Of a stretch of DNA of 52,089 nucleotides, positions 37,337 to 46,651 are shown piece after piece. The notes below the pieces were generated by a model that saw nothing but the letters and a program-made list of their open reading frames with translations, had not been told where the DNA came from and did not search any database. Both the position numbers and the translations under genes were made by a program. The stretch comes from a virus. The stretch is taken from the IMG/VR virus record IMGVR_UViG_3300000385_000004, positions 1 to 52,089 of that record; one strand, given 5' to 3'. Within the stretch, counting starts at the first letter, position 1; the number at the start of each line of letters is the position of its first letter.

Positions 37337-38272
37337 TTAGTCGTCAGTGAGACCTTTGAAGAACGACAGATCGTCATCGTCGTCATCACTTGTCGAACCA
37401 AAATCCGGAGAAGGAGCTTCATCCATTGTTTTCGGTGCGCTTTCCTTGAACTTCGGAGTGAAGTCCATCTCCGGCTCGTCATCCTCGGCGGTATGTGTGG
37501 GTGCGTGGGAACCACCGTCAAGCGCAAGAACTTTGTAAAGCTTCGCTTTGAGTTCATCATACGACTTGAAGTTTTTAGGATCGACGATTTCCTGCAGAGA
37601 ATGCTGGGAATTCCAAATGGACTCCATTTCCTCGTCTGTCATCGCAGAGCCATCAGGCTTAGTGATTGGACCAGGAGCAGAAAACTCTGACTTATCATAG
37701 TTACGATAACCTTCAACATTACGAGCTTTCAGTTTGAAATCTGCACCTTCCCAGAAGTCAAACGGATTAACAGCTTCTTCATCCTCGAATTGAGGGTTCA
37801 TCATGTCATTCAGCTTATCGAAAATTTTCTTACCAAACTTGTACTTGAAAACCTTGCCTTCGTTTTGAGGATTTGCAGGATCCTTGACAACATAGACATT
37901 GGCATGGAAACCAAGACGGCGCTTCTGTTTGCGGGCGATGTCTTTATCTGATTCGACACCAGAATTCCAAAGTTTACTATTGTATTCAGAAACGGGGTCA
38001 TCTTGACCAATAGTGGTAAGAGAGTTTTCAATGTACCAACCACCAGGACCTTGGAAACCATGGTCCCACATACGAACAAATGGCATGTCTTCACCCTGAG
38101 GCGCAGGAAGAAAACGAAGCACAGCATAACCATTGCCGGCTTTGTCGACTTCGAGCTTCCAGTAGTCATCATCGCCAGATGGGCCGGAAGAGTTCATAGA
38201 TTGTAGTTGGGAATTGAGCTTATCAAACTCTTTAGAACGAGCTTGTTTTAGTGCGGAAAAAGAACTTGGCAT
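37337..38272 (-). CDS. gp32: Single-stranded DNA-binding protein gp32
   Basis: A 311-residue protein (T4 gp32 is 301). Recognised by the basic N-terminus for cooperative binding (MPSSFSALKQARSKEFDKLN), an OB-fold core (GNGYAVLRFLPAPQGEDMPF, VRMWDHGFQGPGGWYIENSL) and an acidic tail ending SDDDDDDLSFFKGLTDD. It coats DNA at replication forks and recruits partners through the tail. Unlike T4 gp32, which binds zinc with one His and three Cys, this sequence has no cysteine at all, so the zinc site is lost. It starts ATG 38272 with AAGGAG and an AU-rich leader. Downstream of gp59 as in T4. Confidence 0.93.
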   Translation of the reverse strand: MPSSFSALKQARSKEFDKLNSQLQSMNSSGPSGDDDYWKLEVDKAGNGYAVLRFLPAPQGEDMPFVRMWDHGFQGPGGWYIENSLTTIGQDDPVSEYNSKLWNSGVESDKDIARKQKRRLGFHANVYVVKDPANPQNEGKVFKYKFGKKIFDKLNDMMNPQFEDEEAVNPFDFWEGADFKLKARNVEGYRNYDKSEFSAPGPITKPDGSAMTDEEMESIWNSQHSLQEIVDPKNFKSYDELKAKLYKVLALDGGSHAPTHTAEDDEPEMDFTPKFKESAPKTMDEAPSPDFGSTSDDDDDDLSFFKGLTDD

Positions 38273-38330: not shown

Positions 38331-38930
38331 TTAACTTGTATACTTAAATTTGTCAACCACTATTTTCCTCATCTTATCTTTGTCATACTCTAGAAATGGC
38401 TTGTAATTCAGCACGAAACTATTTATATGTGGGAACATGATTTTTTCATGAATTTTTTTGTCCCAGTAAATAAAACATTTTGTCAAATCATCGAGTATCA
38501 CAAGGGTTTCTGGACTAATTTTTTCTTGCATATACAATGTAAGCAAGCGTGGATGTTGTCCGTTATCAACCACAATGTTTGAGTCGAAATTATCATTCAA
38601 CTCGTTTAACTCACGCTTAAAATTATACGTGAGAGCCTGTATTCGTTTAGCCCATGCGACATAGTTTTGATGCGCTTTCTCTTCAAGCATATCACCAATC
38701 CATATCGAGGGATCAACGATCATATTAGCAAGAATAAGCTCTTTTGCTTCTGATCTTTTTGAAAGCTTATAGAAAAAGAACTTATCTTTTCGATTCTCAA
38801 AGCTTTGGACATTAGCTTTGATTTTGCCATTATACTTGAAGAAATCATAATTAGAAGTAAAATGACGTTTCATTGCAAGATAGTATACATAGATGTCATA
38901 AGCATCTCGAGTACTATAAAGTTTTGTCAT
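38331..38930 (-). CDS. gp59: Replicative helicase loader gp59
   Basis: A 199-residue protein (T4 gp59 is 217). The match to T4 follows: AYDIYVYYLAMKRHFTSNYD (T4 'gksVYKLYLMIKQHMNGKYD'), FFKYNGKI, ENRKDKFFFYKLSKRSEAKE (T4 'YQKRRDKYFFQKLSEKYKLK'), NMIVDPSIWIGDM. It loads gp41 helicase on gp32-coated forks. Adjacent to gp32 as in T4; overlaps gp33 by 4 bases (ATGA). Confidence 0.9.
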   Translation of the reverse strand: MTKLYSTRDAYDIYVYYLAMKRHFTSNYDFFKYNGKIKANVQSFENRKDKFFFYKLSKRSEAKELILANMIVDPSIWIGDMLEEKAHQNYVAWAKRIQALTYNFKRELNELNDNFDSNIVVDNGQHPRLLTLYMQEKISPETLVILDDLTKCFIYWDKKIHEKIMFPHINSFVLNYKPFLEYDKDKMRKIVVDKFKYTS

Positions 38931-39358: not shown

Positions 39359-39979
39359 TCACTTTACCATAAATCCAATTCTTGCGGGTTTGATGAAACC
39401 ATCAGCATCATCAAAACTCTCTATATAACTATAACCCATACTTTCGTAAATGTCAATCAAATTGACTGGATCATCCTCGAATATAGGAACGAGCTCATCA
39501 TATTCCGGATCAGGAGTATCTCTTAGATGTACTTCGATCACTTTATCACCTATGAATTCTATATTGATTAAAGGTAAGTCTGATAACTCATTAAGTTTAC
39601 GTGGAACTGCAGGAGCATAATTAGTTCTTTTCCACCACATGAATCGAAGCTCTAGTTTACTCGCTAACCAACAACTCTTAAGTTGCCATCCAACCAAATG
39701 TTTCCAAGTAAATGTAGCCGAGTAATGATCGCCTTCAAACCATTCGCACCAAAAATATCCAGGTGGGACTTGTGTTACATCTCCGGCTTTGATAAACTTT
39801 TTATGAGCACCTGCACTCATCCCAGAGAGGTTGTAAATCGGTCTGATGATATAATAACCATCACGATCTGGAGCTACACCACAGGGGCCACAGTAGTGTC
39901 CTAGAAGGTTAGACACATAAAGCTTATTGAACCATTTACGATATTCAGGATATTCTTTCCAAGCTTCATGATCTTCCAT
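39359..39979 (-). CDS. Conserved T4-like phage protein, possibly ATP-grasp-like
   Basis: A 206-residue, tryptophan-rich protein (EAWKEYPEYRKWFNKLYVSN). The stretch DGYYIIRPIYNLSGMSAGAH, then GDVTQVPPGYFWCEWFEGDH, is a recognisable module of marine T4-like phages; 'RP...lsGmg.Ga' followed by 'vppGyfw.E' recalls the nucleotide-binding part of ATP-grasp proteins, but this is not certain. The start has CGGAG 6-7 bases upstream. It is the first gene downstream of the tmRNA coding piece. Function unknown. Confidence 0.6.
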   Translation of the reverse strand: MEDHEAWKEYPEYRKWFNKLYVSNLLGHYCGPCGVAPDRDGYYIIRPIYNLSGMSAGAHKKFIKAGDVTQVPPGYFWCEWFEGDHYSATFTWKHLVGWQLKSCWLASKLELRFMWWKRTNYAPAVPRKLNELSDLPLINIEFIGDKVIEVHLRDTPDPEYDELVPIFEDDPVNLIDIYESMGYSYIESFDDADGFIKPARIGFMVK

Positions 39980-39997
39980 AATATACTCCGTTGTTAA

Positions 39998-40162
39998 GTG
40001 AGCCCGTTCTGTTGCCCGGTGGAGCTCATACCGCGTAGACTCAAGCTGCGAGTGCTACAGGTTCTGCGTTAATGTTTGCAGTTATTAAGATGCGACTATT
40101 ACGCGTTCGCCTCCGATAGTCTCCACGTTCCCTTCCGCATACGTCGATCCCAATTCACCCCC
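39998..40162 (-). ncRNA. ssrA: tmRNA coding piece with tag reading frame
   Basis: Begins GGGGGTGAATTGGGATCGAC (tRNA-like 5' half and D-loop). A GACTAT/ATAGTC helix (40121-40116 with 40099-40094) precedes the tag. The tag frame runs 40079-40041: resume GCA, then ANINAEPVALAA and TGA. It is followed by a hairpin GAGCTC/GGGCTC ending near 40000. The ending ALAA is the usual ClpXP/ClpAP degradation signal. Confidence 0.86.
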
Positions 40163-40303
40163 ATCAAAGATACACTTTAAGCTTCAGAGTGTCGGACTCG
40201 AACCGACATACCCTTCTCTGATATTCAGAAACACAGAACGTTACAATGTTCCCTTAGTTGGCCAACTAGCTTATAAAGGTTGCGGCGCCTTTAAGTGTAT
40301 CCG
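40163..40303 (-). other. tmRNA spacer with closing stem and T-arm-like minihelix
   Basis: A 141-base spacer removed to form two pieces. A 9-bp stem (40169-40177 with 40293-40301) extends the acceptor stem and brings both pieces together. Inside is a tRNA-like T-arm, GTCGG TTCGAGT CCGAC (40207-40191), flanked by TCAGAG/CTCTGA pairing, plus a 14-base palindrome (40255-40268). No complete tRNA cloverleaf can be folded. Confidence 0.7.
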
Positions 40304-40363
40304 TGGTGGAGGTGCGGGGTTTCGAACCCCGGTCCGTCCTACGTCCAGTCAGTTTCACCGACT
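40304..40363 (-). ncRNA. ssrA: tmRNA acceptor piece
   Basis: Contains hairpin AGTCGGT-GAA-ACTGACT, the segment GGACGTAGGACGGAC similar to the region before the T-arm in bacterial tmRNA, a T-arm CGGGG TTCGAAA CCCCG (40331-40315), the acceptor strand CACCTCC and an encoded ACCA ending at 40304. The 5' end is estimated from the promoter. Confidence 0.85.
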
Positions 40364-40583
40364 ACAATATATTTATACCATAAAAACTCTTTAATGTCAA
40401 CAAGATAAACACGCAACCAAGTATACCCATAAAAATATGTTTTGCATTTTCAATATCTATACCAAACGATGTAAGAACAGCAACAGAAAAAACAGTTAGA
40501 ATATAACTTGTAAGAATTGATAATGGGATATTAACCGTGATCATAGCGACGTAGTTTCTCTTCGCGCCCTTCTCTTTGACCAT
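40362..40583 (-). CDS. Small two-helix membrane protein (holin candidate)
   Basis: A 73-residue protein starting ATG 40583, preceded by GAGGAG at 8 bases; a TTG 6 bases earlier is poorer. It has a basic N-terminus (MVKEKGAKR) and two hydrophobic segments (ITVNIPLSILTSYILTVFSV, HIFMGILGCVFILLTLKSFY). Size, two helices and closeness to the SleB-type endolysin make it a holin candidate, but no family match is seen. The 5' part overlaps the DUF1289 gene by 53 bases. Confidence 0.5.
   Translation of the reverse strand: MVKEKGAKRNYVAMITVNIPLSILTSYILTVFSVAVLTSFGIDIENAKHIFMGILGCVFILLTLKSFYGINIL
40370..40377 (-). promoter_or_regulatory. Late promoter box for tmRNA (TATAAATA)
   Basis: Exact TATAAATA on the minus strand ending 6-7 bases before the estimated 5' end of the acceptor piece, the distance used in T4 late promoters. 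It overlaps the last codons of the small membrane protein gene. Confidence 0.6.
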
Positions 40584-46060: not shown

Positions 46061-46651
46061 TTATGCAGCATTTTCATAAGGACGTTCACCATCATAGTCT
46101 TGGAAACCCTGCCACCAGTCAGGAGCAGAGCGACCACGATCCCATTTAGCAAACGGTTTTGCGGCATGGTAATAGTTACGATAAGAGGTAACCGCATCAC
46201 CTTCGACAATACAATCCGGATATGCTTTCATCGCGAGAGCAAATGGTGTAAGACCAATATCAGGAATATTGTCAGGTGCTTTACGAAGAAGTTCACCAAG
46301 CTTTAGGATTGTAGCATGATCTTTATTGAAGCGATACAGGAACTCGACACCAAGAGCACGGAAGTGTTCGTAATGCCATTCGTAGTTAGCCTTCGACTCA
46401 GCAGTCCATGTGGTGCAAGGATGATACTTATGTACCGCAAGGTAATACTGATCATCACGTTCATCGCCAAAGCTGTAATAAGTCTGCATGGTTTTACCGG
46501 ACTTAGATGGCCGTTTGGTGGGAGTACCATCAAGCATACGATGTACGGTCGACATCATTTGAGCAGACTCTACGATCATTTTGGGAATATGCTTATCGCA
46601 CATCATTTGAGCAGAAATAATAGGTGATTCGTCAAGTACGAAGATATTCAT
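46061..46651 (-). CDS. Conserved phage protein, possibly pyrimidine-dimer glycosylase-like
   Basis: A 196-residue protein. MNIFVLDESPIISAQMMCDK, HIPKMIVESAQMMSTVHRML and YHPCTTWTAESKANYEWHYE form a pattern widespread in T4-like phages ('.CDkH..Km..E..Qm', 'HPc..W...s..nY.w'). This loosely recalls the T4 endonuclease V family (PF03013), but the length and details differ, so the repair role is only a suggestion. Its own promoter (46679-46707) is 28 bases upstream. It ends PYENAA. Confidence 0.5.
   Translation of the reverse strand: MNIFVLDESPIISAQMMCDKHIPKMIVESAQMMSTVHRMLDGTPTKRPSKSGKTMQTYYSFGDERDDQYYLAVHKYHPCTTWTAESKANYEWHYEHFRALGVEFLYRFNKDHATILKLGELLRKAPDNIPDIGLTPFALAMKAYPDCIVEGDAVTSYRNYYHAAKPFAKWDRGRSAPDWWQGFQDYDGERPYENAA

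Follow-up and report, generated by a model that had tools for sequence, protein, structure and literature searches.

A permuted tmRNA gene in a T4-like phage, with a putative composite promoter and an intervening segment that is an exchangeable slot among its relatives

Whether the segment between the two pieces of a permuted phage tmRNA gene is more than spacer is a question raised by a locus in an IMG/VR virus record of 62,538 bases (IMGVR_UViG_3300000385_000004). The window analysed here comprises 52,089 nucleotides, positions 1 to 52,089 of that record. An initial annotation, made from the sequence alone, took the locus for a circularly permuted tmRNA gene of alphaproteobacterial type and proposed gene capture. 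The explanation favoured here, to which a probability of roughly 0.8 is assigned, is that the phage maintains a working permuted ssrA gene with a composite promoter, in which the intervening segment (ITS) is a slot for exchangeable cassettes.

Anatomy of the tmRNA gene

The identity of the gene is borne out: ARAGORN and two Rfam models agree on a circularly permuted tmRNA gene at 40400-39997 on the minus strand. ARAGORN reports a permuted tmRNA at 39950-40400 (-) with the tag ANINAEPVALAA. The model RF04321 (tmRNA_permuted) matches at 93.6 bits against a cut-off of 47 (E 6.6e-17), and RF01849 (alpha_tmRNA), the check that had been proposed, lies above and not below its threshold, at 79.3 bits against 50 (E 6e-20); both matches are full length. 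The stretch also folds better than its shuffles (z -3.8).

The acceptor piece (40304..40364, -), delimited by the RF04321 alignment and the sequence, consists of the T-arm, the 3' strand of the acceptor stem (CACCTCC, 40314-40308), A73 (40307) and an encoded CCA (40306-40304). It precedes the coding piece (39997..40162, -; RF01849 alignment), which opens with the 5' acceptor strand GGGGGTG (40162-40156) and contains the mRNA-like domain, with the conserved CAACAGAA near its 3' end. The pairing across a 141-base spacer and the encoded CCA can be read from the sequence as first described, with 7 of 7 pairs formed, G3.U70 included; this pair is present in all 133 of the viral tmRNAs parsed. The order of the pieces, the 7-bp stem with G3.U70 and the CCA are those of a permuted tmRNA. 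The coordinates first given for the locus are right. The tag frame (40041..40079, -) was also correctly read, since both ARAGORN and the sequence give ANINAEPVALAA and a TGA stop, in the codons GCA-AAC-ATT-AAC-GCA-GAA-CCT-GTA-GCA-CTC-GCA-GCT-TGA (40079-40041, -). An alanine resume codon and a hydrophobic tag end in Ala-Ala are characteristic of tmRNA.

Genome setting and origin

The source phage is T4-like, and the neighbouring genes encode baseplate wedges and hub, a gp59 helicase loader and gp32. The gp59-like helicase loader, a conserved neighbour, lies at 38331..38930 (-; phrog_269, E 6e-50), and the gene for the gp32-like single-strand DNA-binding protein (37337..38272, -; phrog_224, E 5e-119) served as the anchor for gathering relatives. 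A permuted tmRNA is present in 46 of 80 gp32-anchored related loci, a number that includes a second, longer contig, of 99 kb, in which both gp32 and the tmRNA are those of the window; the other loci may simply be incomplete, and such sequence counts are not counts of independent events. A search of the record for smpB found none, and the tmRNA would thus depend on the host.

Phage genes of this kind have been published, which weakens the novelty first attached to the locus. Buchholz et al. 2022 (PMC9004378) describe a two-piece tmRNA in the phage Melnitz; their set of 133 unique phage tmRNAs includes 53 of the two-piece form, and 50 of these 53 come from marine or aquatic samples. The gene order in Melnitz is PhoH - ssrA - gp33 - gp59 - gp32, and the window has the synteny with gp59 and gp32, in a T4-like genome, of this ssrA lineage. 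The window gene is a further case of the two-piece tmRNA of aquatic T4-like phages; what it adds is a tag that has diverged and a spacer that bears tRNA material. The alphaproteobacterial host class read from the permuted form is only suggested by it, because Melnitz, with its tmRNA in the same gene slot, infects an OM43-clade methylotroph and not an alphaproteobacterium (PMC9004378).

If the gene had been captured recently from a host, as a transduced ssrA copy without phage-specific evolution, its permuted form and the PVALAA end of its tag would be explained, as both resemble ssrA of Rhodobacterales and Hyphomicrobiales (ANDNxAPVALAA). The comparisons do not bear this out. Identity of the coding piece to other phage tmRNAs reaches 69%, and to sampled Rhodobacterales/Hyphomicrobiales ssrA it does not exceed 60%; the host sample was chosen by tag, with SAR11 and SAR116 outside the comparison. 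Syntenic permuted tmRNAs span a broad clade of T4-like phages, the phage-type composite promoter described below is not found in the hosts, and a codon-limited genome scan gave no host with the tag ANINAEPVALAA. Recent capture, already disfavoured on these grounds, is highly improbable; judged by sequence comparison, the window tmRNA appears to belong to a phage lineage.

Promoter

Immediately upstream of the acceptor piece, at 40400-40370 (-), is a promoter that is absent from the initial annotation. By sequence and cross-locus comparison, it consists of a -35 box, TTGACA (40395..40400, -), 17 nucleotides and then TATAAATA (40370..40377, -), a T4-type late-promoter octamer that doubles as the -10 box. 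A lone late box is weak evidence in the window, in which TATAAATA occurs 13 times against 6.8 expected; the real evidence is its position across loci. Among 102 unique phage loci, the octamer is exact in 63 and has at most one mismatch in 92, where shuffles lead one to expect 1.95 and 28.8, and the exact copies occupy a nearly fixed position, -81 to -72 from the CCA end. A T4 late promoter is expected to lie, as here, at a constant distance upstream of where transcription begins, and the octamer was found in 0 of 27 host ssrA genes. A sigma70-like arrangement (TTGACA-N16-18-(-10)) is present in 80 of the 102 loci, with a spacer of 17 in 70. In 13 of these 80, the -10 box stands apart from the TATAAATA-like box, an arrangement that speaks for early as well as late promoters and disfavours a purely early or purely late one.

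These data suggest a composite promoter in which host sigma70 -35/-10 boxes overlap a candidate T4 late box, so that the tmRNA may be expressed both early and late. It is among the new results of this analysis; early expression of phage tmRNA was proposed by Buchholz et al., and the passages of that paper (PMC9004378) found by term search mention neither a late box before ssrA nor the content of the ITS. A small hydrophobic ORF (MITVNIPLSILTSYILT..., 40362-40541, -) also reaches this region: its stop overlaps the start of the tmRNA and its 3' end includes the tmRNA promoter.

The intervening segment as an exchangeable slot

The ITS of the window (40163..40303, -) is predicted from sequence and fold to be excised in maturation. 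Its length of 141 nt stands as first given, but its treatment as a mere spacer does not, as the segment is folded (z -3.0) and contains a closing helix of 10-12 bp and a T-arm-like hairpin. The 5' arm of the helix, GATACACTTAA (40291..40301, -), and its 3' arm, TTAAAGTGTATC (40169..40180, -), which is followed by a conserved TTTGAT, were defined by the fold and an arm-swap test. The hairpin, GTCGG-TTCGAGT-CCGAC (40191..40207, -), resembles a tRNA T-arm and is a sub-threshold Rfam tRNA match. A full tRNA gene can be rejected, with 15.8 bits against a cut-off of 29 and zero tRNAs from ARAGORN. Of 77 non-coding ITSs, 3 have a T-arm, where shuffles lead one to expect 0.02; tRNA debris thus seems to have found its way into the slot on more than one occasion. 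There is no convincing ORF in the window ITS, the longest being 16 aa from a GTG without a Shine-Dalgarno (SD) sequence, and no Rfam family scored above threshold in the ITSs of the window, L103 or L125. An exact 26-mer scan found relatives of the window ITS in its own phage only, and for that reason exchange at this locus is inferred from its relatives.

Across 133 viral tmRNAs, the ITS spans 25 to 192 nt. The ending TTTGAT is shared by 94 of 103 unique phage ITSs, a proportion to be read with the bias of the TTTGAT-based scan pattern towards ITSs with that ending. In 130 unique ITSs, pairing between the ends averages -13.3 kcal/mol for an ITS's own arms and -6.8 kcal/mol for swapped arms, with the own arms better in 127; the closing helix coevolves.

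The segments and the RNAs around them differ in history, as can be seen from 11 pairs in which the mature tmRNAs are at least 93% alike but the ITSs unrelated, and from 31 pairs in which the mature tmRNAs are less than 78% alike but the ITSs at least 90% identical. Two loci, L044 and L164, have a 94-nt ITS that is 100% identical within mature tmRNAs that are 67% identical, and the identity stops 12 and 9 nt beyond the ITS. Conversely, L051, L052 and L057 share 99-100% of the tmRNA and have unrelated ITSs. The breakpoints of exchange fall 4-12 nt from the ITS ends, at the acceptor stem. The core of the 94-nt ITS is found in 15 contigs: in 11 its surroundings are those of a permuted tmRNA, the tags being of several kinds, and in 4 (L325, L329, L332 and L334) it lies in the loop of another hairpin, beside tRNA genes, which indicates that the element has passed between RNA-like settings that are not related to each other. 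The ITS is a modular slot, and cassettes have been swapped between phage tmRNAs. Neither group I introns nor homing endonucleases turned up among the ITSs examined. In L325 (2800-3310, -), as in L329, L332 and L334, the ~85-nt element is part of a promoter-led, apparently non-coding region; no Rfam family was found for the element.

The variety of these segments might alternatively be that of unconstrained filler, shaped by neutral drift and random indels, as their range of lengths and the dissimilarity of most ITSs between tmRNAs would allow. Identical cassettes in divergent tmRNAs, the coevolving helix and, as described below, cargo with an SD under protein-level purifying selection are all at odds with filler, which is unlikely overall and largely refuted for the ITS family; it is a possible description of the interior of the window ITS.

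Micro-ORFs within the intervening segments of relatives

Many relatives' ITSs encode a 38-44 aa peptide, SICAD ('WSICAD') ORF2, of the type MKNPLVREVSKWMFKAYILWSICADITLLAGIIYLVFF, which on the basis of its sequence is likely to have one membrane span. The first 15 sequences gave a pN/pS of 0.30-0.37, with pN lower than pS in 105 of 105 pairs; in 44 unique core sequences, pN/pS is 0.19 over 20 core codons, pN is below pS in 945 of 946 pairs, and core changes by codon position number 3376/1369/7476. ORF2 is under purifying selection. Its stop precedes the predicted RNase P site by one base. An SD is present within the first 12 nt in 52 of 52 SICAD ITSs, against 5 of 78 other ITSs, and sits inside the 5' arm of the closing helix. 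An acidic ORF1 in the +1 frame overlaps the start of ORF2 in 49 of 49 well-bounded SICAD ITSs, a count that leaves out L255, L257 and L271, the SICAD ITSs of which, at 236-260 nt, may be mis-bounded. The two overlapping micro-ORFs with their SD are found at, for example, L150:2044-2202 and L109:3058-3234, and in ~280 IMG/VR contigs: a profile scan gave 282, and among the best 80 of these, 80 are nested in ssrA (57 by ARAGORN, 23 by an exact GATGGG junction). SICAD loci are flanked by T4-like genes; no isolates with SICAD or with three queried cassettes were found.

A different ORF (MFKWLSKTRLVVITRDYFRERNRKADAKIPKYLSGT..., with the SD GGAG) is present, unannotated, in the ITS of 4 of 4 Melnitz isolates; in MZ577097, the unannotated ORF in the ssrA ITS (MFKWLSKTRLVV...) lies at 46096-46257 (within L341). 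It has no stop upstream of the predicted RNase P site, and the excised ITS would therefore be a non-stop mRNA. Melnitz-type ORFs occur in 18 contigs, all directly 3' of CCACCA, with one in-frame 24-base insertion, and have a pS of 0.34, a pN of 0.09 and a pN/pS of about 0.27. In a third ITS ORF (L099, L132 and L148), the differences are all synonymous (5, 1 and 4).

The pattern of sequence selection indicates that the ITSs of relatives hide conserved micro-ORFs, in the sense of coding capacity only. Searches of PHROGs and Pfam gave no convincing families for the ITS peptides; DUF2542, at 16.3 bits, was under its cut-off. No report of ITS ORFs or of ITS exchange was found in the open-access literature, and earlier work on ssrA variation, published behind subscriptions, may contain some of these results; the ITS as a swappable slot with conserved tiny protein genes, in hundreds of related virus sequences, looks new. 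Other, unrelated ITS micro-ORFs are present in L018, L019, L045, L093, L198 and L199. Several encode hydrophobic peptides, and the one in L198 has a CxxC zinc-ribbon-like end.

Proposed maturation and function

A course of events can be proposed for the ssrA maintained by this phage, a T4-like aquatic myovirus. The tmRNA would be transcribed from the composite promoter, probably both early and late in infection, and the precursor would fold with the acceptor stem paired across the ITS. Host RNase P is predicted to cut before G40162 and 3'-end nucleases after the CCA at 40304, which would remove the ITS and leave a tmRNA in two pieces. Together with SmpB and AlaRS of the host, this RNA would carry out ribosome rescue and add ANINAEPVALAA. 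The slot would tolerate inserts with pairing ends, and cassettes would pass from one phage tmRNA to another, the breaks falling at the acceptor stem. Their cargo would range from a bare hairpin, through the structured or tRNA-derived RNA of the window, to the micro-genes of relatives, which have ribosome-binding sites of their own.

It may be that the mobile-cassette slot is also a hidden mini-gene, a proposal on which our confidence is evenly divided. Maturation would then free a mini-mRNA, one transcript would yield both a rescue RNA and a peptide, and the Melnitz-type pieces, being non-stop, would need their own tmRNA. The layout would suit such a message: the SD closely follows the CCA and, in the most frequent family, the stop falls 1 nt upstream of the predicted RNase P site.

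The phage RNA might instead act as a decoy or inhibitor that titrates SmpB or stays uncharged, thereby blocking host trans-translation. There is precedent in a TLD-only phage tmRNA that inhibits host tmRNA, and the tag-less DS6A RNA has been proposed to block host trans-translation (PMC11915505, PMC4131195). The window tmRNA, however, has an intact full tag frame, a resume codon, G3.U70 and CCA, and a decoy is very unlikely here. The tmRNA could also be expressed and yet be irrelevant to growth.

If the slot is as proposed, permuted tmRNA genes are to be reread, as the discarded spacer is selected, mobile among phages and able to hold protein genes, which annotation has missed because they are located inside an RNA gene. 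The cultured Melnitz has an ITS ORF, so that expression and function are directly testable.

Comparison with known systems

The alphaproteobacterial two-piece tmRNA (RF01849, Caulobacter type) resembles that of the window in gene order, in acceptor pairing across the ITS and in the conserved ends of the coding piece. The window gene differs in being on a phage, in its late-box promoter and in its folded ITS of 141 nt, compared to 22-28 nt in most sampled hosts. One nominal archaeal MAG has a permuted tmRNA whose intervening sequence contains an intact tRNA-Ala gene (PMC11915505), and both that tmRNA and the one in the window have tRNA material in the ITS, although that of the window is a T-arm-bearing remnant under tRNA thresholds. 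Group I introns are known in the tmRNA T-loop (PMC11915505), and like the ITS they interrupt a tmRNA gene, can be mobile and can include ORFs; unlike them, the ITS is predicted to be removed by tRNA-type processing, without ligation.

The closest parallel is Melnitz, a Methylophilales phage. Both it and the source of the window are T4-like aquatic phages with an alpha-type permuted tmRNA, with ssrA between the PhoH and gp59/gp32 genes and with TTGACA and TATAAATA upstream. They differ in the content of the ITS, an unannotated ORF in Melnitz and a tRNA-like remnant in the window, and in the tag, which is ANDNYVPVDYALAA in Melnitz and ANINAEPVALAA in the window. Unusually long permuted-tmRNA tags are found in L198 (ANANFKPELFFDFEVLEAA), L128 (AKKAHNDNINYSAMKIAA) and L112 (ANIKVSNDNTPFEAMKVAA).
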